Of a stretch of 23,056 nucleotides of DNA, positions 5,414 through 14,766 are shown in pieces. Each line of letters starts with the position of its first letter. The first letter of the stretch is position 1. Both the position numbers and the translations under genes were made by a program. The DNA is from a virus, in the IMG/VR virus record IMGVR_UViG_3300009285_000358, positions 1-23,056 of that record, one strand, 5' to 3'. The notes under the pieces were generated by a model, which searched no databases, had not been told where the DNA came from, and saw only the letters and a program-made list of their open reading frames with translations.

Positions 5414-6142
5414 TTATGCTGCACGAGCGACGGTGCCCACGATAGCCTCGATACCCCAAGTGCGCTTGAACGTCTCGTACAGCTCCGTCCCGCGGGTCCG
5501 CCGATAGTAGCCGTAATTGCCTTCGTTGGTCGGTACGTGGTTGATCGCTACGTCGGGGATGTACCAGACCTTCAAGCCGGCCCGTTGAGCGCGGAGGAAG
5601 AAGTCTTGATGCTCACAGAGCTTCAGTTCGTCGTTCCACCGGACCTGCTGAAGCGCAAGCCGGTCGGCCGCTAGGAAGTTGTAGGTGATGTCGACGCGCG
5701 TCGGGGTAGTGGCTTTGACGGCGGCCATGTAGAGCCGGGGAGGATCGAGCCGCAAGGTCCCTTCGTAGTGGGTGATCTGGCCGTTGTGGTAGACCGTCCC
5801 GCCGGCGATATCACAGACCCCGCTCCGTGGGTAGGCAACCAGATGGTCAAGGTTGGTGGTCGGGAACAAGATGAAGTCGTCGTCGAGGACCACGACAAAC
5901 GGCGTCTCGGCAGCATCAACTAGGGCGTTCCGTCCAGCACTTAGGCCGATGTCGTGATCCATCTCCAGCAACCGGACTGCCGGGAACTCCCGACAGACGT
6001 CCCGAGCAGCGGCGTGGTCCTGGGAATCGTCGCCCACCAGCACCGGCCACGGCAGGTCGTGAGCCTGGATCGACTCTAGCAACCGTCGGAGCGCTGCCGG
6101 TCGCTCTAAGGTCTTGACCAGCAAGGTCGTATCCCGAATCAC
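5414..6142 (-). CDS. GT2-type glycosyltransferase (second paralogue)
   Basis: I choose the GTG at 6142, preceded by a strong AGGAGG with good spacing. An upstream ATG at 6190 would place coding sequence across a terminator hairpin. The product is 242 residues with a GT-A fold pattern: an N-terminal strand/helix (TLLVKTLERPAALRRLL), VLVGDDS at about 34-40, SAGRN at 68-72, and the metal/nucleotide-sugar motif LDDDF at 86-90. A later CEHQDFFLRAQRAGLKVWY is the presumed acceptor/base region. It is a clear paralogue of the protein at 10351-11067 (shared SAGRN, DDDF, HYEG, CEH-[EQ]-[DE]-FF, RAxxAGL). It has no signal peptide or membrane span, so it acts in the cytoplasm. Sugar and acceptor are unknown. 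Confidence 0.85.
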   Translation of the reverse strand: MIRDTTLLVKTLERPAALRRLLESIQAHDLPWPVLVGDDSQDHAAARDVCREFPAVRLLEMDHDIGLSAGRNALVDAAETPFVVVLDDDFILFPTTNLDHLVAYPRSGVCDIAGGTVYHNGQITHYEGTLRLDPPRLYMAAVKATTPTRVDITYNFLAADRLALQQVRWNDELKLCEHQDFFLRAQRAGLKVWYIPDVAINHVPTNEGNYGYYRRTRGTELYETFKRTWGIEAIVGTVARAA

Positions 6143-6159
6143 CTGATACCTCCTGGCGG

Positions 6160-6214
6160 AAAATATAGAAAGACGCCCGACATTTCGCACCTTGGCGAGT
6201 CGATGCCGGGCGTC
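6160..6214 (-). terminator. Intrinsic terminator after the 98-residue gene
   Basis: On the coding strand GACGCCCGGCAT (6214-6203) pairs with ATGTCGGGCGTC (6183-6172), 12 bp with one G-U pair, around a 19-base loop that can add a short inner stem (TCGC/GCGA). A T-rich run, TTTCTATATTTT, follows at once. This is the best terminator-like signal in the window. It separates the sulfosugar operon from the second GT2 gene and the connector genes, implying partial read-through or a separate promoter for the tail region. Confidence 0.78.
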
Positions 6215-6233: not shown

Positions 6234-6530
6234 TCAGTTGGGCTGATGGCGACCCTTGAAGTTTGCCGGCAGGATCTCTCCCGGGGTGACGATTCTCTTG
6301 GCGTTCTTCTCGGCGACCAGCTTCTCCAAGGCGCCTTTCTGTTGGACGTAGGCGGCGGTCAGGTGGCTCATCGCTACCCCCATCGCGGCGAACAGCAATG
6401 ACGGCAGTAGCACCTCGGTGACGTTCGCGCTGCGAGCGATGTTGGTGTCGAAGCTGCCGTCCGGCCGTTCGGTACAGACGATCTGCAGCCGGAATTCTCC
6501 CTCCGGGATCTTCTCATCCGGCTCGTTCAT
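6234..6530 (-). CDS. Hypothetical 98-residue protein with one hydrophobic segment
   Basis: Its ATG overlaps the stop of the sulfoquinovose synthase gene (ATGA, 6527-6530), so the two are translationally coupled. The N-terminal half is polar and strand-like (GEFRLQIVCTERPDGSFD). Residues about 40-58 (VLLPSLLFAAMGVAMSHL) are hydrophobic and followed by a charged helix (KGALEKLVAEKNAKRIV). The hydrophobic part could be one membrane span or an amphipathic helix. I do not recognise a family. A terminator lies directly downstream, making this the last gene of its transcription unit. Its coupling suggests a partner in the glycan pathway, but nothing in the sequence proves that. Confidence 0.7.
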   Translation of the reverse strand: MNEPDEKIPEGEFRLQIVCTERPDGSFDTNIARSANVTEVLLPSLLFAAMGVAMSHLTAAYVQQKGALEKLVAEKNAKRIVTPGEILPANFKGRHQPN

Positions 6531-8707
6531 TGCTTTCCTCCGGTCCAGGTCGTCCGCGGCATCATCGCTTCCCGTACGGATTCGAGCCGGTCGCGGTAGC
6601 CAGCCAGCCGCTTCAGCACCTCGACCACCGCTTGCTCCAGATCTTCGTACTCGGGGAGCAGGTCCGCCATGACGTTGACCGCGACCCGGTAATCGTGCTG
6701 CTCGGCCTCAATCCGGACGTTCGGCACATGAGCGATGTCGACCCCCTGGCCGGTGACCGTCCGGGCTCCCTGATCGACGGCCCCGGCAAGCTGGAGGACC
6801 GACTGCATGGTCGTCAGGTGGTTGACGTGTAGAATCTTCCCGGGCTCCTGGCCGGCAAGGGCCTGGGCGAGGATCGGCACCGACAGACAGACGTCCTTGA
6901 GCGAGATGTACCCCCGGGTCTGGCCGCCAGAGCCGTAGACCGTCAACGGCACCCCGAGGATCGCCTGAGCACAGAAGCGGTTCAGTACTGTGCCGAAGGC
7001 TTCGTCGACGTCGAACCTGGTAGCCAGCATGGTCTCGGGGGTGATGCCGAAGACGACCCCCTGGTAAAGGACTGCAGCCCGGAGCTTCCACAACCGCGCC
7101 GCTAACGCTACCAGCGCCCCGGAGGCGACCTTGGAATTGCCACACCATACCGGCTTACCCTCTCGTCGCACAAGGATGATACCATCCCCGGGCACTTCGC
7201 AGCACCAGACCGAACCGATGTAGTGTTCGGTCCAGTCATTGAGATCCTCGGGAAATTGATTCACCTGCATGGTAAGCGTTGGGCAAATATTGACTCGATA
7301 CTGATTCTGGCGAGCCACCGAGATGTTCGCTGAATAGCGCAAGCGAAGCGCTAGTTCCTGCACATCGTCAGCTAATCGTCGCGAGATAGTATGGTACGTC
7401 CAGTGTCCATCCGAGTGCCTATGTGCATCGCCGGCCATTAAGGCGGCGAACAGGGGGCATAGCAGGGATGGCTGTAGGGATAGCACTTCTCGAGGAATGT
7501 ATTTGTCGGCAGCCTTGCCAAACTGCAGCAGATGCTCACATAGCTGCCGACTGTGGATAGCGTGCACCTCCCGGTCGCCGCTTGCATTATAGCGCCCGGT
7601 CTTGGCTCCCAAATATGCTGCTACCTCTGCACATACTACCGCCAGTCTTTCTGAGTTTGGCCCTTTCTTCTGTGTGAAATCTACCCGCTTGCGCTTCGTA
7701 TGTACCGATCCTTCAGCCAAGTACCATCCCAAGAATGGCAGCCAGACATCCAACGGGATGGCACAGGCTTTACGCTGGAAGGCGACAGAGTGGTTGTGCC
7801 ATTCGTAGGTGGGCACGATCCAGCGATCCAGGTGCTCTCCGTCCCATGTGCCGCTGAGTAAATAAGACACGGCTTTGCCCTGCACGGCGTGCGCCTCGCG
7901 GATCTTAGCTGCCCCCACCTTGCCGCCTCCGCGCCCAGCGATAACCATGCGATGATTCGGTGTGACGCGAAGTGATAAGCGTCGCTGTTGCAGGCAGTAC
8001 ATGGGACCGTCATAGTCGTATCGCATGATCTTGGTCGGAGAAGCGAACCTCACGCGATCATCTTCCAAATCGCGCGAGGCGATCTGATCTGCTGGATGCA
8101 AATCGGAGAATTGCTTCCATCCGTCGCGGGTCAACACCTCCGTATCATCATCATAGCAAGCGTGGTAGACGCTGCCTGGGTTCCGGGGGAAGGCCATCCC
8201 TTCGAAGTCGCCGCTCGGGAACACCCCCTCGGGGATCGGCACCCCTGGAGTGCCATACTCGCCCATCGTCGAGACGTGCAACAGCAGAGCCGACGGACAG
8301 GTCTCGTTGATCGCCGCCAGCAGGTTCCAGGTGCCGACAGTATTGTTGAACAGGGTCTCGGTGGCTTGCTCGACGTTGGCCATCGAGTAGGGAGCCGACG
8401 GCTGCTCGGCCAGATGCACGATCACGTCCGGGCGGTAGTCGGCTAACAGCGCCGCGAGGGAGTAATAGTTCGTCACGTCGCTGGTCCACCAGCCACCGAC
8501 CCCTTCGCCGAACTCTGCGGACAGCAGCCGGCCCCGTTCCATGAAGCCATCGAGCGGCAGGATCGGTAGGCCCCCGGCCTTCTTGACCATCGCCCGTCGA
8601 CGGAGGTTGTCGATCCCAGCGACGACATGGCCTTCTCCCAACAGGTACTGAGCCAGAGCGAACCCCTGGTAGCCATCAAGCCCGGCGATGAAGTATCTCG
8701 TGGTCAT
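6527..8707 (-). CDS. sqdB: UDP-sulfoquinovose synthase-like SDR, interrupted by an intein
   Basis: The 726-residue precursor starts at ATG 8707 behind AAAGGGGC. Without the intein (residues 184-524) the extein is 385 residues, near SQD1 length. SQD1-specific landmarks, compared from memory, are present: NAD-binding GLDGYQG (9-15), EQPSAPYSM (101-109), STMGEYGTP (146-154), YHA joined after splicing to SKV (Tyr181...Lys526), FGTVLNRFCAQA (571-582), LTVYGSGGQTRGYI (588-601), VPNVRIEAEQHDY (661-673), and MMPRTTW near the C-terminus. SQD1/SqdB makes UDP-sulfoquinovose from UDP-glucose and sulfite; the archaeal relative Agl3 serves S-layer glycosylation. Family assignment is strong; the exact substrate is inferred. 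It sits after a CgeB-like glycosyltransferase and is coupled to the next small gene. Activity requires splicing, since the catalytic YxxxK is split. Confidence 0.88.
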   Translation of the reverse strand: MTTRYFIAGLDGYQGFALAQYLLGEGHVVAGIDNLRRRAMVKKAGGLPILPLDGFMERGRLLSAEFGEGVGGWWTSDVTNYYSLAALLADYRPDVIVHLAEQPSAPYSMANVEQATETLFNNTVGTWNLLAAINETCPSALLLHVSTMGEYGTPGVPIPEGVFPSGDFEGMAFPRNPGSVYHACYDDDTEVLTRDGWKQFSDLHPADQIASRDLEDDRVRFASPTKIMRYDYDGPMYCLQQRRLSLRVTPNHRMVIAGRGGGKVGAAKIREAHAVQGKAVSYLLSGTWDGEHLDRWIVPTYEWHNHSVAFQRKACAIPLDVWLPFLGWYLAEGSVHTKRKRVDFTQKKGPNSERLAVVCAEVAAYLGAKTGRYNASGDREVHAIHSRQLCEHLLQFGKAADKYIPREVLSLQPSLLCPLFAALMAGDAHRHSDGHWTYHTISRRLADDVQELALRLRYSANISVARQNQYRVNICPTLTMQVNQFPEDLNDWTEHYIGSVWCCEVPGDGIILVRREGKPVWCGNSKVASGALVALAARLWKLRAAVLYQGVVFGITPETMLATRFDVDEAFGTVLNRFCAQAILGVPLTVYGSGGQTRGYISLKDVCLSVPILAQALAGQEPGKILHVNHLTTMQSVLQLAGAVDQGARTVTGQGVDIAHVPNVRIEAEQHDYRVAVNVMADLLPEYEDLEQAVVEVLKRLAGYRDRLESVREAMMPRTTWTGGKQ
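7136..8158 (-). mobile_element. Intein with LAGLIDADG homing endonuclease, inside the YxxxK motif
   Basis: This in-frame 341-residue insert begins with Cys184 (CYDDDTEVLTRDGW, block A) and ends KPVWCGN (Asn524), followed by Ser525 as the +1 nucleophile. Block B is RVTPNHRMV with Thr249 and His252. Block F/G is CCEVPGDGIILVRREGKP then VWCGN. The penultimate residue is Gly, not the usual His. Endonuclease motifs are LPFLGWYLAEGS (323-334, Glu332) and LFAALMAGDAHR (419-430, Asp427), followed by a typical T-I-S-R-R-L-A-D-D-V helix. Both presumed metal-binding acids are kept, so the endonuclease may be active. Base composition is lower than the extein: hand counts of two intein lines give 52% and 47% GC, against 70% for one extein line. 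This suggests separate ancestry. Confidence 0.93.
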
Positions 8708-8718
8708 GGTCTGCCCCT

Positions 8719-9687
8719 TTACGGCTGGTTGCTATAGCTGGCGAGTAGGGTCACCAGATCAGCCGCACGTCGCGCCGCCGTGAAGCGCGTGTGCATGAGC
8801 TCGAATCCTCGTTGGGTAAGGTCGGCTAACTGTTGCGATTCAGCCAGCCAGCCGGCGACCATCTGCCGCAACGACTCGCCTTCGCCGTGAAGCTCGATCA
8901 TGTTCACCCCAGGGATAAACCCCAGGTCCCGCATCTCGGGAATCCAATCGCACGCCAGCGCCGTGCCGCAAGCCGGGATCTCGAAGAGCTTGGTCACCGG
9001 ATATCGGAACTTCGACGTGCAAGCAGTGCTGATCGACGCCTCGGAGAGCAGCCGGGCGTAGTCCTTGCCGACCGGCCAGTAGCCTTCTCGCTCCATGCTC
9101 TCTGGTGGCCGTTGAACGCGACGGAACCAGTCCTGACCGTTCAGCGCGTCGTAGACCGTCTGCCGCCAAGGGTAGACCAGTCCATGCAAGACCCCGGTCT
9201 GAAGGACCCCGATGAGCTTCTGCTTCGACCACCGCCGGTAGACCTCGGAGTCGACCCAATACGGGAACCAGCGGACCCGTTCCCTAGGGAGGTAGGGATG
9301 GAAGACCGCGGTGCTGTCGCGGTAGAGCGGGAGGAACAGGTCGAAGTTCAGAGCGTGCGCCCGGCCGATGTATTCCTTGACCATCGGGCCGTGCTGGTCG
9401 GCCCACATGACGGCTTTGCGGGTGCGGATCTTCCCCCACCGTTCCAACATGAACGAGTACATGGCGTCGGTAATGATCCAGTCGTACTCGTTGGCCTGCG
9501 CCCAATCGACCAGCGGCTCGTTGGTATCTCCTTCGAGGGTCTGCATCCGGCAGTACCTTCCCTCAAGGACCGGTAACGGCCGGCGGATGATCGTCAGGTC
9601 GCAGACCTTCGCCAGTTCGCGCTGCAATGGTCCGTAGAAGTCACAGACCCGCGCGGTGCGGTCGTTGGTCAGGTAGAGTAGTCGCAT
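8719..9687 (-). CDS. CgeB-like glycosyltransferase
   Basis: This 322-residue protein starts at ATG 9687 with CGGGAGCTTGTCCT upstream; the start overlaps the end of the HNH gene by 19 bases. The N-terminus (MRLLYLTND, then YGPLQREL) begins a Rossmann-like GT-B domain. The middle has YDWIITDAMYS and RWFPYWVDSEVYRRW, and the C-terminal nucleotide-sugar region has KFRYPVTKLFEIPACGTALA, close to the usual P-x-K-x-x-E-x-x-A-x-G pattern of CgeB/GT4-type enzymes. The C-terminal helix (LTQRGFELMHTRFTAARRA) is also typical. It is cytoplasmic with no membrane span. It probably transfers an activated sugar made by neighbouring enzymes; donor and acceptor cannot be read from the sequence. Confidence 0.82.
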   Translation of the reverse strand: MRLLYLTNDRTARVCDFYGPLQRELAKVCDLTIIRRPLPVLEGRYCRMQTLEGDTNEPLVDWAQANEYDWIITDAMYSFMLERWGKIRTRKAVMWADQHGPMVKEYIGRAHALNFDLFLPLYRDSTAVFHPYLPRERVRWFPYWVDSEVYRRWSKQKLIGVLQTGVLHGLVYPWRQTVYDALNGQDWFRRVQRPPESMEREGYWPVGKDYARLLSEASISTACTSKFRYPVTKLFEIPACGTALACDWIPEMRDLGFIPGVNMIELHGEGESLRQMVAGWLAESQQLADLTQRGFELMHTRFTAARRAADLVTLLASYSNQP

Positions 9688-10025: not shown

Positions 10026-10366
10026 CTGCGGCCTTGGTCGACGTTGGCCAGCAGCCCGCCGGTATGCGGATGAGCTTTCAGCAGTCCGTGGCTGAACCGC
10101 GCGATCCGGACGAACACCTGGACCCCGTCTTCGGACCCTTCAGGGATGATGAACCCTGCCGACTGCTCGGTAGCGGTCAACTGGTCGTCCTCGGTGATCC
10201 GCTTGGCTGCTTTTCGATAGGCAGCCAGCACCCGGTCGCCGGTAGCGTCCTGGTAGGTGTCCCGGGCTTTGCGCTTCATCGGCGTTTTGCGTCTGGCTTT
10301 CGGCGTGCGGATGGTTTTCACTGGTCGGGCTCCTACGTTGGGGGTAGTAATCAGACGGCTTGCCAT
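10022..10366 (-). CDS. Hypothetical basic protein, 114 residues
   Basis: The ATG at 10366 has AAGGGGATTCG in front, a good ribosome binding site. A GTG five codons upstream is possible but weaker. The start lies inside the end of the GT2 gene (16-base overlap) and the stop overlaps the GTG of the HNH gene. The first about 40 residues are very basic (KARRKTPMKRKARD) and probably disordered or nucleic-acid binding. The rest has a helix (RVLAAYRKAAKRITEDDQ) and a strand-like part (GVQVFVRIARFSHGLL). I do not recognise a family. Pairing with the HNH gene suggests a DNA-related accessory role, which is inference. Confidence 0.72.
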   Translation of the reverse strand: MASRLITTPNVGARPVKTIRTPKARRKTPMKRKARDTYQDATGDRVLAAYRKAAKRITEDDQLTATEQSAGFIIPEGSEDGVQVFVRIARFSHGLLKAHPHTGGLLANVDQGRR

Positions 10367-11067
10367 CGAATCCCCTTCCACCCATGCCGTTCGAGGGCCG
10401 CGTTCCGCATGTCGTTGATCCGGTGGTTGCGGAAGCGGTTGTAGTCACCTGGCCGGCCGCGAGCGTGGAGCGCCCATACCTGCGGATGGAACCCTACTCG
10501 TAGCCCGGCTTGCTTGGCTCGCCAGAAAAACTCTTCGTGTTCGCAGATCTTTAGCGGTTCGTACCAGCGGATCGCTCGCAACGGTTCCACCCGAGCGAGG
10601 AAGAAGTTCAGGACGATCTCACAGGGGATCGGCTCGTTGTGGGCTTCTACCCGCCAGAGGACTAGCCCGTCCGCATCGGTGGTCATAAAACCTTCGTAGT
10701 GCTGCTCGCGGCCGTCCTCTTCGATCTTGAGGAACCCCGATACCAGATCGTACGGCCCGCCGTCCAGAGCTTCTATCAGCCGCTCGACCTGGGTGCCTTG
10801 GGTGAAGACGAAGTCGTCGTCCATCAGCAGTACCAGCGGCGTCGAGGCGCAGTCGAGCATCAGGTTCCTGCCGGCCGACATCCCGCTATCGAACGCCATC
10901 GGCAGGACCCGGACGTTCCCGTACGCCGACAGATCAGTCCGCGGTTGACGGCTATCATCAGCTACCAGCACCGGCACGTCGGGGTAATAGTCCCTTAACG
11001 AGCCGAGCAGCCGGTCCAGGCACTCCGGCCGCTCGAAGGTCTTGATAGCGAAGCTGACGCGGTTCAT
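10351..11067 (-). CDS. GT2-type glycosyltransferase (first paralogue)
   Basis: The ATG at 11067 overlaps the sulfotransferase stop (ATGA). The 238-residue product has VSFAIKTFERPECLDRLL at the N-terminus, VLVADDS (33-39), SAGRN (64-68), LMDDDF (81-86) and a later KICEHEEFFWRAKQAGLRV. The DDD motif binds the metal and nucleotide sugar in GT-A enzymes. It is clearly related to the protein at 5414-6142, sharing most motif positions and similar length. There is no membrane span. Position inside the coupled sugar-gene run, right after the sulfotransferase, suggests it adds one residue of the same glycan. Confidence 0.85.
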   Translation of the reverse strand: MNRVSFAIKTFERPECLDRLLGSLRDYYPDVPVLVADDSRQPRTDLSAYGNVRVLPMAFDSGMSAGRNLMLDCASTPLVLLMDDDFVFTQGTQVERLIEALDGGPYDLVSGFLKIEEDGREQHYEGFMTTDADGLVLWRVEAHNEPIPCEIVLNFFLARVEPLRAIRWYEPLKICEHEEFFWRAKQAGLRVGFHPQVWALHARGRPGDYNRFRNHRINDMRNAALERHGWKGIRWQAV

Positions 11068-11693
11068 GCGCCGAACAGCCGGCACGAGTAGCGAGTGAAC
11101 TCCGGCCGAGCAGTGCCGAGCCGCTGACGGTCCCGAGGGTAGCCGAAGAAGTCCAGTATCTCCCGCTGGCCTTCCTCGGTATCCAGGGCCGAGACCGGGA
11201 ACAGCATGAAGCTGCTGGGGTATTCGAGGACCCAAGCTGCGGCGGCGGCATAGTAGGAATCGTAGTACGCCTCGGCCGCTTCGAGCCGGCTACCAGGGAA
11301 CTTCGGCAGCAGCCCCTGGTCGTCCTCAGTCGGCTCGGTGCCTATTTCGGGAACCAGCGAGCAGTGATCGACCGGCTGGCGCATCAGCGAGTTGACGGTA
11401 TCGACCTTCGACCGCTGGAGGCAAACCACCTTGGCGGACAGCGAGCCGACCAGCGCATTGACGTAGGGCAGGTACCACGGAGCGATGTCCCCTACCCGAT
11501 CGGCGCCGAGGTTCGCCAGCTTAGCCACCAGGGCTCCGGCAGCGCCGTTGGTAGTGCCGTTCCATCCCAGCGGACAACCGCTGTGGAGCATGATCGTGCT
11601 GCGCTGGAGCATGAGCAGGTAACGTAGCGCTTTCGAGCCACACCGTCCGGTGCCGCAGACGAACTGGTAGGTCTTGACCTTGGCTGACGACAT
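11064..11693 (-). CDS. Sulfotransferase-like protein
   Basis: I start at ATG 11693 (MSSAKVKTYQFVCGTG), five bases after the aminotransferase stop. The 209-residue product has a P-loop-like phosphosulfate motif GTGRCGSKAL (14-23), and AKVVCLQRSKVDTVNSLM (87-104), which matches the 3'-phosphate site with a conserved Arg and Ser. A C-terminal LFPVSALDTEEGQREILDFFGYP segment looks like the usual end of the sulfotransferase domain. Such enzymes move sulfate from PAPS to a hydroxyl or amine, here perhaps of a sugar. The family is somewhat short here (usual domain about 250). A role as another PAPS/nucleotide-binding P-loop enzyme is possible. Confidence 0.75.
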   Translation of the reverse strand: MSSAKVKTYQFVCGTGRCGSKALRYLLMLQRSTIMLHSGCPLGWNGTTNGAAGALVAKLANLGADRVGDIAPWYLPYVNALVGSLSAKVVCLQRSKVDTVNSLMRQPVDHCSLVPEIGTEPTEDDQGLLPKFPGSRLEAAEAYYDSYYAAAAAWVLEYPSSFMLFPVSALDTEEGQREILDFFGYPRDRQRLGTARPEFTRYSCRLFGA

Positions 11694-11698
11694 CCCCA

Positions 11699-12781
11699 CT
11701 ACCCCCTGAAGGTGTTGACTGCCTCGATGATGCGGCCGACCTCGGCGACCGTCAAGTCCGGCCGGTTCGGTAGACCGACGAAGGTCCCGGCGATTTGGGC
11801 GGCTCGCTGGGCATAGAGCGCCGTGGTGGCCTCGATATCGACCTGCATCCATAGCGGCTGAGCGTAGCGGTAACGGGTCTCGATCCCTCGTTGGCGAGCA
11901 TGATCGGTGAACGCCTGGGCGTCCTCCTTGGAACCGAACCGCACAGCGTTCCAGAACCACGCGGGATCTTCGCTGTCGAGCAGCCTCAATCTACGCGCTG
12001 GGTCGATCCGCTCTTGGATGTAGCGGACATACTGACAGCGGTCGGCATGATCGGCCGGGAAGTGGTCCAACTGGCTGAGGCCGAGAGCAGCATGGAGCTC
12101 TGACATCCGGGCGTTGGTTCCCCACACCTGATGCCGGTCGCGGTCAGCCATCCCGTGGTTCGCTATCGTCTTCACGGTCTCGATGATCTCTGCATCGTCA
12201 GAGACTACCGCACCGCCTTCAGCCGTGGTGATGTGCTTGGTAGCGTAGAAGCTGAAGCAGGCGCACCGGCCCCAGGCCCCTGCCGGTACCTCTCCGAGGC
12301 TCGCACCGTGCCCTTGACAGGCATCCTCGATCACCGGGAACTCGTCACCGACGACCGCCAGGACGGCCGGCATATCGACCATGAAGCCCATGTAATGCAC
12401 CGGGATTACCGCTGCGAGAGCACCCCAATGACGGTCAAGGTCTTCGGGGTCGAGGCAGCCGCGGTCGTCGACATCGAGCCAGCAGATCTCCGCGCCGACG
12501 TTGTGGACTGCTTCAGCGGTAGCGAAAAAGCCCAACGACGGCACCCCGACCCGTTGTCCTGGTCCTACCCCTACCGCTCGCAAGGCAAGCTCCAGCGCCA
12601 TCGTCCCGTTGGATACTGCGGCACCGTAGTTGACCCCGGCGATCTCTTGAGCGAACCGGGTAGCAAACTGGTCGGCGAGTGGTCCTGCTGCGAGTCGGCC
12701 GCTGGCCAGAGCATCTCTTACCGCTAGCAGATCGCGGTCGGTGATGATCGGTCGAGCTACCTGGATCAGATCGGTTGCCAT
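11699..12781 (-). CDS. DegT/DnrJ/EryC1/StrS-family sugar aminotransferase
   Basis: The start at ATG 12781 (MATDLIQVARPIITD) gives 360 residues, the usual family size. It lies eight bases after the acyltransferase stop. Landmarks are SNGTMALELAL (57-67, phosphate binding), PVHYMGFMVDM (127-137), IEDACQGHGA (151-160, Asp153 for the PLP nitrogen), FSFYATKHITTAEGGAV (176-192, Lys182 as the PLP lysine), and NARMSELHAALGLSQLD. These PLP enzymes use glutamate to convert 4-keto or 3-keto nucleotide sugars to amino sugars. With the flanking epimerase and PglD-like acyltransferase it forms a compact amino-sugar set. The precise keto-sugar is not determinable here. Confidence 0.92.
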   Translation of the reverse strand: MATDLIQVARPIITDRDLLAVRDALASGRLAAGPLADQFATRFAQEIAGVNYGAAVSNGTMALELALRAVGVGPGQRVGVPSLGFFATAEAVHNVGAEICWLDVDDRGCLDPEDLDRHWGALAAVIPVHYMGFMVDMPAVLAVVGDEFPVIEDACQGHGASLGEVPAGAWGRCACFSFYATKHITTAEGGAVVSDDAEIIETVKTIANHGMADRDRHQVWGTNARMSELHAALGLSQLDHFPADHADRCQYVRYIQERIDPARRLRLLDSEDPAWFWNAVRFGSKEDAQAFTDHARQRGIETRYRYAQPLWMQVDIEATTALYAQRAAQIAGTFVGLPNRPDLTVAEVGRIIEAVNTFRG

Positions 12782-12788
12782 GATCGCC

Positions 12789-13358
12789 TCAGTGGGGATG
12801 CGCCGGGACGCCAAGCCATCGCTCGCCGGCAGGGACATCGTGTAGTACTACTGCTCCGGCGCCGATTACCGCCCCTTCGCCGATAGATACGTTCGGTGCG
12901 ACCTTGACCCCGGCGTACAGTAACGCCAACGGGCCGACCTTCACTCCGCCAGTGAGGAGCACCCCAGGAGCCAGGTTGGCGTACTCGCCGATCTCGCAGT
13001 TGTGCTCGATCACGCACCCGGCATGGATCACGGCGCCTGGATAGATCACTGCACCATGCTCGATCACGACCCCGGCGTTAATGATGCAGCCGTCCATGAC
13101 TGCGGCGAAGTTGATAGTTGCTTGGGGATGGACCGCGGTGAATAGCTTGCGGTGCAGCGCTTCCAGTTGCCGGCCGAGCGCCAGCCGGCCACCCGGTGAG
13201 CTACAGCAGACCGCGACTGGACGGTCTGATACCGGCAGGTCTTCGATGGCTTTGATGCAGCCGACGATCTTGACCTCGGTCAGCCGGCAGATGGTTTCGA
13301 TATAGCCGCGCTGGGCGGCTCCTTGGTCGAGTAGGACGATCCCTCGTGGGCCGGTCAT
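12789..13358 (-). CDS. PglD-like sugar O/N-acyltransferase (left-handed beta-helix)
   Basis: The ATG at 13358 overlaps the epimerase stop (ATGA), giving 189 residues. Residues 1-70 look like the small N-terminal nucleotide-sugar-binding domain of PglD-type enzymes. From FTAVHPQATI (73-82) onward the chain shows hexapeptide repeats. The central EHNCEIGEYANLAPG (118-132) contains the presumed catalytic His119, and the end has GAGAVVLHDVPAGERWLGVPAH. PglD relatives transfer acetyl from acetyl-CoA to an amino sugar on UDP. Neighbours match: the aminotransferase directly downstream supplies an amine. Other acyl donors or O-acylation cannot be excluded. Confidence 0.88.
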   Translation of the reverse strand: MTGPRGIVLLDQGAAQRGYIETICRLTEVKIVGCIKAIEDLPVSDRPVAVCCSSPGGRLALGRQLEALHRKLFTAVHPQATINFAAVMDGCIINAGVVIEHGAVIYPGAVIHAGCVIEHNCEIGEYANLAPGVLLTGGVKVGPLALLYAGVKVAPNVSIGEGAVIGAGAVVLHDVPAGERWLGVPAHPH

Positions 13359-14272
13359 ACCACCCTCGCCACCGACTGGAAGCGTTCCTGTAGCTTGGCG
13401 ATCCCGTGAGGGATGGTCTCGGTGAAGCGGAACCCCGTAGCCAGGAGCTTCTCGCTGGACATCCGGTAGCTGGCGAACGCTACAGGTTGGGCGACGTGCC
13501 GGATCGGCACCGGCAACCGCTCGGTGACTTCCAGCGCGATCTCGCCGATCTGCCAATTCTCGCTGACGACGTGGTAGGTCTGGCCGGCGGCAGTATCGAG
13601 GTTCGCCAGATGGATCGCGGCCCAACAACAATCCTGGGTATGGCAGAATGGCCGGTAGTTGGTGCCGTCACCGTGGACTGTCAACGGCAAGCCTTGAAGA
13701 GCCCGGTAGACGAAGGCGTTGACCACCAGGTTGAACCTGATCCCTGGAGCCCAGCCGTAGTTGGTGCCGAACCTGACGATGGTGTAGTTCCCGCCGCGGT
13801 CATGGAGGAACCCTTCAACGGCGGCTTTGGTTTCGGCGTACGGGTACTTCGGTTGTGGTGGGCTGTCGTCCGGGTAAACGGTATCAGCTTCGTCGCGGTT
13901 GCCGCCGAAGACGTTGGCGCTGGAAGGGAAGATGATCCGGCAGTCGTCAGGAGCCAGAGCGATGACCTGGGTTGGGAGCTCGTAGTTATCGGTCCAGATT
14001 GCCCGTTCACGTTCGCGGCTGGTTTCCGCTTCTACTTGAGCGGCTAACAGGTAGAGCGTCTGTGCTCCGGCGAGGACCTTGCTCATCAGATCCATGTCGG
14101 CCATGTCGCCCTGCACAAACCTCACCCGGTCAGGGTAGGGGAAGTCGGCGACCCGCTCGGGAACGAACCGCTTGTCGACGACGACGATCTCGGCGGTCTG
14201 ATGCTTTACCGCGAGCTTAGGCACCAACGCGGACCCGATGTACCCCAGGCCACCAAGCACGACGATCTTCAT
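13355..14272 (-). CDS. NAD-dependent epimerase/dehydratase (extended SDR)
   Basis: The ATG at 14272 (MKIVVLGGLGYIG) is chosen over a start eight codons upstream because it puts the nucleotide motif at the very N-terminus and overlaps the preceding stop by ATGA. The 305-residue product has GGLGYIG (7-13), acidic Asp33 after the second strand (EIVVVD), IIFPSSANVFG (113-123) and the catalytic YPYAETK (Tyr145, Lys149). Later HGDGTNYRPFCHTQDCCWA is the typical substrate-binding stretch. It likely dehydrates, epimerises or oxidises a nucleotide sugar. Only 40% or so of motif positions resemble the sulfosugar synthase, so the two are different branches of the SDR family. Confidence 0.9.
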   Translation of the reverse strand: MKIVVLGGLGYIGSALVPKLAVKHQTAEIVVVDKRFVPERVADFPYPDRVRFVQGDMADMDLMSKVLAGAQTLYLLAAQVEAETSRERERAIWTDNYELPTQVIALAPDDCRIIFPSSANVFGGNRDEADTVYPDDSPPQPKYPYAETKAAVEGFLHDRGGNYTIVRFGTNYGWAPGIRFNLVVNAFVYRALQGLPLTVHGDGTNYRPFCHTQDCCWAAIHLANLDTAAGQTYHVVSENWQIGEIALEVTERLPVPIRHVAQPVAFASYRMSSEKLLATGFRFTETIPHGIAKLQERFQSVARVV

Positions 14273-14766
14273 TGGATCACTCCTCGTAGTTGGCATAGTC
14301 GACGGGTCAAGGCGATCTGTGGAGCGGTAGACTTGCGGTTGGTCTGGAGGTTGACCTTGAGGCTGGCCAGCATCGCTGCGACTACCGGCAACGACCGTAG
14401 ACAGGGAACCAGCGCCAGTAGCTTGTTTTCCGGCAAGGACAGGAAAGCCGCTACCAACGCTGGATCCGCTTCAGGAACGAACGCCAGTTCCTCTCGGCGG
14501 CCTCGTCGACGGGGCTTGGTGGCTTGAGGCTGCTCGCGCTCGGGGAGAAGCAGGACCCGGATGCCGGCCTGTTGATAGGCGCGGACGATCTGCTCCAGAT
14601 CACGGCAGGTGATGATCGCCAGGACCCCGGCCGTTTCCAGGTCGGCAACCTCTACCCAGTCGGCGTTGCGGAACTCCAGCGGCTCAGTCGGCCAACGGTG
14701 ACAGGCGATCTCCCGAGCTTGCTGGAGCCGTTCACGATCCCGGTTGCGGACGAACGCCAGAATCAT
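14269..14766 (-). CDS. Hypothetical protein with one copy of a repeated domain
   Basis: The preferred start is ATG 14766 (MILAFVRNRDRERL), 165 residues; a TTG four codons upstream is possible. It begins inside the end of the upstream gene (35-base overlap) and has no obvious Shine-Dalgarno, so translational coupling is likely. Residues 1-75 follow a strand-helix-strand-helix-strand pattern: REIACHRWPTEPLEF, ETAGVLAIITCRDLEQI, VRAYQQAGIRVLLLP. This looks like a third copy of a unit present twice in the neighbouring protein. A basic linker (TKPRRRGRREE) and a helical C-terminal part follow. The domain type and function are unknown. Confidence 0.72.
   Translation of the reverse strand: MILAFVRNRDRERLQQAREIACHRWPTEPLEFRNADWVEVADLETAGVLAIITCRDLEQIVRAYQQAGIRVLLLPEREQPQATKPRRRGRREELAFVPEADPALVAAFLSLPENKLLALVPCLRSLPVVAAMLASLKVNLQTNRKSTAPQIALTRRLCQLRGVIQ

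Follow-up and report, generated by a model that had tools for sequence, protein, structure and literature searches.

A Methanococcus UDP-glucose dehydrogenase is among the intein-bearing proteins recorded in InBase, its fold being different from that of the enzyme considered here. In phages, described parallels are offered by the inteins of the Bixzunavirus gp3 nucleotidyltransferase, methylase and RDF protein which, like the element addressed below, are class 1 inteins with LAGLIDADG endonucleases lodged in or near active-site motifs, according to the available portion of the mycobacteriophage survey (Kelley et al., 2016; PMC5050341). That same portion describes the RDF intein as tolerating a penultimate Gly and being splicing-competent. 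Still, the mycobacteriophage inteins found there are about 26-27% identical to the present intein and occupy different host proteins, with none of the 13 intein-bearing protein groups named in that text being a sugar-nucleotide SDR. At the structural level, the TliVMA, PhoVMA, PI-PfuI and PI-SceI inteins (PDB 7qsu, 7qst, 1dq3 and 1vde) share the predicted two-domain fold over its full length (Z 20-27), although they are 14-19% identical in sequence and reside in V-ATPase and other host proteins. As for the host protein, its counterpart is Arabidopsis SQD1 (PDB 1qrr/1i24/1i2b), with which the phage extein shares its fold and the TMGEYGT and YHxSK motifs, although it is 36% identical to that enzyme and falls under the curated equivalog cutoff. 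Searches of the literature revealed neither a published intein in the SQD1 family nor any link between inteins and sulfoquinovose or sugar-nucleotide exteins. As such, the suggestion made in the original prediction that this may be a new host protein for inteins stands, many published SQD1-family inteins at the same site having been sought and not found. Phage-encoded SQD1-like enzymes themselves seem little described; the accessible part of PMC11806900 describes no phage-encoded UDP-sulfoquinovose synthase, the topic appearing in one reference only.

The stretch of DNA analyzed here (the window) corresponds to an entire IMG/VR virus record (23,056 bases), derived from a metagenome and possibly representing a partial genome. 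On its minus strand, positions 6527-8707 comprise a continuous ORF of 726 residues that, on the basis of sequence matches, encodes an extended SDR of SQD1-like type with an intein inserted in it. Alignment with homologues assigned residues 1-183, containing the NAD-binding half, the TMGEYGT signature and Tyr181, to the N-extein (8159-8707, minus strand) and residues 525-726, beginning with Ser525 as the +1 nucleophile and Lys526 of YxxxK, to the C-extein (6527-7135, minus strand). Between them lies the 341-residue intein, extending from Cys184 to Asn524 (7136-8158, minus strand; 1,023 nt), to which motifs, Pfam and predicted fold assign a Hint splicing domain and a LAGLIDADG homing endonuclease. 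These boundaries, with Ser525 as the following residue, agree exactly with those originally proposed. The intein is in frame, and its removal yields a continuous host protein of 385 residues, with a predicted spliced junction of PGSVYHA/SKVAS. When the precursor was aligned with 32 intein-free homologues, a single clean gap corresponding exactly to Cys184-Asn524 was seen, in line with the earlier placement of the insertion between YHA and SK of the YxxxK motif. Three residues stand between the Tyr (codon at 8165-8167, minus strand) and the Lys (codon at 7130-7132, minus strand) of the motif, and the insertion point follows the second of them, such that the Tyr and Lys lie 345 residues apart in the precursor and four apart once spliced. 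Tyr181, His182, Lys526 and the TMGEYGT signature are invariant across 33 sequences. The calculated masses are 38.8 kDa for the intein, close to the ~38 kDa anticipated earlier, and 41.5 kDa for the spliced extein, rather than the ~43 kDa anticipated.

The assignment of the host protein was considered at the levels of sequence and fold. The extein halves match Arabidopsis SQD1 (1i24/1qrr) with an E value of 2.8e-56. Because a combined extein-plus-intein alignment misaligned the inteins, the intein and the precursor were modelled separately; the top structural match of the precursor model was SQD1 (1qrr; TM 0.87 of the target), with the intein part of this model being of low confidence, since no aligned sequence covered the intein. 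The TMGEYGT signature that marks SQD1-family active sites (8249-8269, minus strand) includes Thr147, equivalent to the threonine replaced in the T145A mutant (structure 1i2b). Fold, TMGEYGT and YHxxK together identify an SQD1-like extended SDR, so that the original prediction of a UDP-sulfoquinovose synthase homologue holds as regards family, yet goes too far in naming a synthase. Specifically, the spliced extein scored 344 bits against NF041015 (UDP-sulfoquinovose synthase), short of the curated threshold of 575 bits (the L005 and G520 proteins introduced below scored 369 and 481 bits, respectively), and the name accordingly stops at "SQD1-like". Its product is probably an activated sugar destined for glycosylation directed at the phage or the host. 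Viral contigs commonly contain SQD1-like genes, with at least 101 loci having been detected in a single scan (L004-L083), reading YHLSK, YHLTK, YHWSK and others at the catalytic motif.

Examination of the window revealed that genes encoding terminase, portal, head and tail proteins surround a glycan cassette that holds the SQD1-like gene. All cassette genes listed here are on the minus strand. Beside the SQD1-like gene is a glycosyltransferase gene (Glyco_trans_1_2; 8719-9687) that is kept in this position in related phages. The other neighbours encode two family 2 glycosyltransferases (5414-6190 and 10351-11235), a DegT-family sugar aminotransferase (11699-12838), a hexapeptide acyltransferase-like protein (12789-13631) and a second extended SDR, an NAD-dependent epimerase/dehydratase that contains no intein (13355-14296). 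A conserved cassette protein encoded at 11064-11960 (minus strand) presents a P-loop-like GTGRCGSK sequence and matched no family; its orthologue in the related contig L002 gave a weak match to Sulfotransfer_3 (E 0.05) that is under the cutoff.

Empty versions of the insertion site were found in two related phages. Contig L005 contains 17 of the window genes in the same order, including an SQD1-like gene without an insert, PGSFYHASKVASS (YHASKVAS), while contig L002 contains 13 window genes and presents the empty site YHVSKVSSG. More broadly, an insert between the Tyr and the Lys is absent from all 156 of the non-identical homologues compared (80 cellular and 76 viral), and no YxxxK-site intein was detected in the other viral contigs examined. 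As the viral and genome scans each returned the best 80 loci, half-gene searches were added to counter a bias toward missing rare alleles. Two candidates raised along the way were rejected. Contig L289, the end of which coincides with the insertion site, reads YHLSK and is merely cut off at that point. Likewise, L323, found by the half-gene search on the basis of a 47% identical C-terminal half, proved to be intein-free; the reading frame of its SQD1-like phage gene (L323:1940-3111) shifts in the stretch of residues 213-220, due to either a real frameshift or an assembly error.

Turning to the intein itself, the splicing blocks expected of such an element were seen, namely block A (Cys1 and TEVLT..GW; CYDDDTEVLTRDGW, 8117-8158), block B (Thr66-Pro-Asn-His69; VTPNHRM, 7946-7966), block F (Cys319) and block G (Gly340-Asn341, followed by Ser+1), with blocks F and G together spanning SVWCCEVPGDGIILVRREGKPVWCGN (7136-7213). 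Two LAGLIDADG motifs were also identified by Pfam, comparison with relatives and structural matching, the first at 7709-7735 (FLGWYLAEG) and the second at 7424-7453 (LFAALMAGDA); all of these elements lie on the minus strand. In an alignment of 40 relatives, the splicing blocks and both LAGLIDADG motifs (GWYLAEG, AGDA) occupy conserved columns, bearing out the earlier claim that the full set is present, with Cys1 being found in 40/40 of these aligned sequences. The match to LAGLIDADG_3 (PF14528) scored over the gathering threshold. The second motif reads GDA rather than the GDG of relatives, and the nuclease could as such be weakened.

Modelling of the intein with AlphaFold2 (pLDDT 94.9) and comparison with known structures gave Z scores of 15-27 against inteins, pointing to a Hint (hedgehog/intein) splicing fold. 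The model aligned over its full length with the TliVMA intein (7qsu; Z 26.7, rmsd 3.8 over 304 residues), as well as with PI-PfuI (Z 22.1) and PI-SceI (Z 21.0), while intein residues 133-297 matched I-DmoI (Z 15). The intein does not belong to class 3 (WCT), given that Cys1 is present, position G5 is a Cys and no WCT triplet exists; the presence of Cys1 and the lack of that triplet instead place it in class 1, following the definitions given in the available text of PMC5050341. By both sequence and predicted fold, the element was thus confirmed as a class 1 intein with a LAGLIDADG endonuclease.

From class 1 chemistry and the conserved residues, a course of splicing can be proposed. The intein follows Ala183 and precedes the Ser that splicing turns into residue 184 of an SQD1-like, NAD-dependent sugar-nucleotide enzyme encoded in a tailed-phage glycan cassette, and the precursor is made as one chain. 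Cys1 would attack the Ala-Cys bond in an N-S acyl shift, the N-extein would pass to Ser+1 and Asn341, here preceded by Gly instead of His, would cyclize. The exteins would then be joined as YHASK, assembling the active site of an enzyme that is presumed to be inactive prior to splicing. At the level of DNA, the endonuclease would cut intein-free alleles at the insertion site, with repair copying the intein in.

The original prediction had called for SQD1 proteins to be searched for inserts at this site. Although the homologues described above contain none, related inteins were identified in two genomes, G520 and G616, placed in Chloroflexota by comparing their phylum and class codes with those of a Chloroflexota reference genome; the site is accordingly not particular to this phage. 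When 400 genomes of this phylum were surveyed, G520 was found to encode one SQD1-type protein split at position 184 (contig C27, L347:6005-8293, minus strand; a 763-residue open frame), containing an unannotated intein of 359 residues at a position identical to that in the phage (IYHL/CYDD...WCGN/SKVHDS). The G520 and phage elements are alike in insertion point, in being class 1 inteins with LAGLIDADG motifs and in residing in an SQD1-family protein; the inteins are 47.6% identical and the exteins 41.6% identical, as compared to at most about 36-37% identity between the phage intein and other inteins among the matches listed. The two loci differ in that the bacterial gene adjoins a glycosyltransferase gene, namely a diglucosyl-diacylglycerol-synthase-like gene, a setting that fits a glycolipid function.

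In G616, a member of the same class, the C-terminal part of the same-site intein was found, about 70-70.8% identical to the G520 intein. Here (C242, L348:753-2785), a truncated, intein-free SQD1 copy (residues 1-260, YHLSK) is directly followed by the intein C-terminal part and the SQD1 C-terminal half. The two SQD1 copies differ slightly, and the arrangement has arisen either through loss of DNA between tandem alleles or through the assembly of two strains into a chimera. In total, 2/47 genomes of the G520/G616 class contain the same-site intein, while none of these 47 encodes a relative of the phage portal protein, an absence that carries little weight as to the phage's host. Comparison of 212 codons of the G520 and G616 inteins gave a pN of 0.187 and a pS of 0.778, showing that the bacterial copies evolve under purifying selection.

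The history of the inteins and of their host proteins was next compared. In a tree of 32 inteins, those of the window, G520 and G616 formed one clade (100/99); when very long branches were included, support for this clade was 73, rising to 100/99 upon their removal. In the extein tree, by contrast, the phage protein grouped with those of L005 and L002 (99) on a deep phage branch, whereas the G520 and G616 proteins grouped with Arabidopsis SQD1 and those of other Chloroflexota (100). Constraining the extein tree to join the three intein bearers was rejected (AU p 2.4e-7). Being monophyletic in the window, G520 and G616, and identically positioned in the window and G520, these inteins define a site-specific family common to phage and bacterial genes. 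The most parsimonious account is that this sharing arose via homing and horizontal transfer between phage and bacterial SQD1-family genes. Given how intein identity (47.6%) lies near extein identity (41.6%), such sharing would be old rather than recent. Moreover, 13/24 bases around the site are identical in the window and G520, as compared to 18/24 for the window and either L005 or L002, which makes cross-homing today doubtful. Taken together, we are highly confident that a class 1 LAGLIDADG intein splits the phage SQD1-like enzyme, that its splicing would assemble YHASK and that it belongs to a same-site family common to phage and Chloroflexota.

Four other explanations were weighed against this reading. 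The one that fares best, while still unlikely, is that a single ancestral intein was lost from almost all other lineages and never moved horizontally. The similar divergence of the phage and G520 inteins and exteins would be expected in such a case, as would the parallel divergence of G520 and G616 (70.8% identity for the inteins, 78-79% for the exteins). Descent of this kind would, however, call for very many losses, considering that 0/156 homologues contain the intein and that surveys of 396 and 400 genomes revealed no further examples except for G520 and G616; in addition, a single clade of intein-bearing exteins was rejected above, and the nearest phage relatives, L005 and L002, are intein-free.

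We consider it improbable that the intein serves as a conditional switch, holding the enzyme off until a cue such as redox state or infection stage triggers splicing. With the catalytic Tyr and Lys kept apart, no activity at all would be expected until splicing had occurred, the Cys-rich blocks (Cys1, Cys319, Cys320 and Cys339) could conceivably respond to redox conditions, and mycobacterial DnaB inteins are reported to splice conditionally in the portions available of PMC7360933 and PMC6195587. Against this, the syntenic phages L005 and L002 do without the intein and only three bearers were encountered among the many homologues examined, such that no regulatory need is evident; furthermore, a selfish intein would equally be expected at an active site.

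More improbable still is that the intein has decayed, with splicing lost and the SQD1-like gene dead in this phage. Decay could be read from the non-canonical penultimate Gly, found where His is canonical, from the GDA of the second LAGLIDADG motif and from a composition unlike that of the host gene (GC3 of 61% in the intein vs. 83% in the host gene), a difference that equally favours the main reading of an inserted intein. Yet the 726-codon frame is open, all of the splicing nucleophiles are conserved and the C-extein retains every family-invariant residue. Nor is the penultimate Gly a sign of decay, as this is the norm in the family, being present in 138/154 related viral inteins, and as, in the available text of PMC5050341, a mycobacteriophage intein whose natural penultimate residue is Gly undergoes full splicing, which is slowed when that Gly is changed to His. 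Finally, although the record is metagenome-derived, the notion that the 23 kb contig artificially fuses unrelated pieces can be virtually dismissed, given the residue-exact splice junction with correct intein ends, the synteny with L005 over 17 genes on both sides and the independent same-site intein in another genome.

The homing intein proposed here belongs to a wider family. While a search of IMG/VR with the phage intein as single query returned no matches, relatives were reached by alignments only, with profile searches of IMG/VR yielding 196 and 147 relatives, of which 154 were fetched (L168-L246, L349-L423). These represent 119 distinct insertion contexts and share Cys1, a penultimate Gly and LAGLIDADG motifs; they come from uncultivated phages and are mostly unannotated. 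The interrupted genes include those encoding glycosyltransferases, tape measure proteins, terminases, methyltransferases (at DPPY) and papain-type peptidases (at NSWG), most of these names having been read from flanking sequence and some confirmed by family search. About 150 IMG/VR inteins (CYDDxTEVL...GN) and that of Prevotella phage Lak-A1, the latter matched over its whole length (E 1e-29), resemble the phage intein in architecture and sequence family, although they are about 24-37% identical to it and interrupt other genes, with the nearest SDR cases being split at RxxN rather than YxxxK. One such case, a GDP-mannose-epimerase-like SDR (L235:3377-5464; Pfam Epimerase, E 6e-33), contains a related intein at RFHNIFGP/C...N/CGTW, while another, an epimerase-like extended SDR (L377), is interrupted at RFFN/C...N/CYGT. 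Judging from these sequences, inteins in phage sugar genes are not confined to this window.

Additional observations were made in the course of these searches. A methyltransferase-like ORF (L172:295-2817) apparently contains two inteins, the first directly after DPPY. The Lak-A1 intein (L164:1694-3820) is unannotated and interrupts a hypothetical protein whose tail is rich in Cys. L427 and L428 (genomes G1714 and G1788, from the phylum of a Thermoplasmata genome) also contain related inteins, of 36% and 31% identity, which follow EAMESQ in MCM-helicase-like genes; what seems to be another intein lies further upstream within the same ORF. Six distant inteins, when aligned, shared no usable conserved stretch.

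What is new here is thus the SQD1-like host protein, together with an insertion site at which at least two further bacterial alleles exist, the kind of intein being familiar. The proteins colonized by inteins thereby come to include a sugar-nucleotide SDR, which is an enzyme of carbohydrates as opposed to DNA or nucleotides. Because the intein splits the Tyr-Lys pair, enzyme activity would provide a direct read-out of splicing. We see about an even chance that homing has spread a mobile intein, specific for the YxxxK site of SQD1-family genes, among the glycan-cassette genes of phages and the chromosomal sulfolipid genes of Chloroflexota, with phages carrying inteins into a bacterial membrane-lipid enzyme. 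The existence of same-site alleles in a phage and in bacterial chromosomes makes intein exchange between phage and bacterium testable in one defined gene, while the survey brings to light a large family of inteins from uncultivated phages that have a penultimate Gly, are for the most part unannotated and in several cases reside in glycosyltransferase and epimerase genes.
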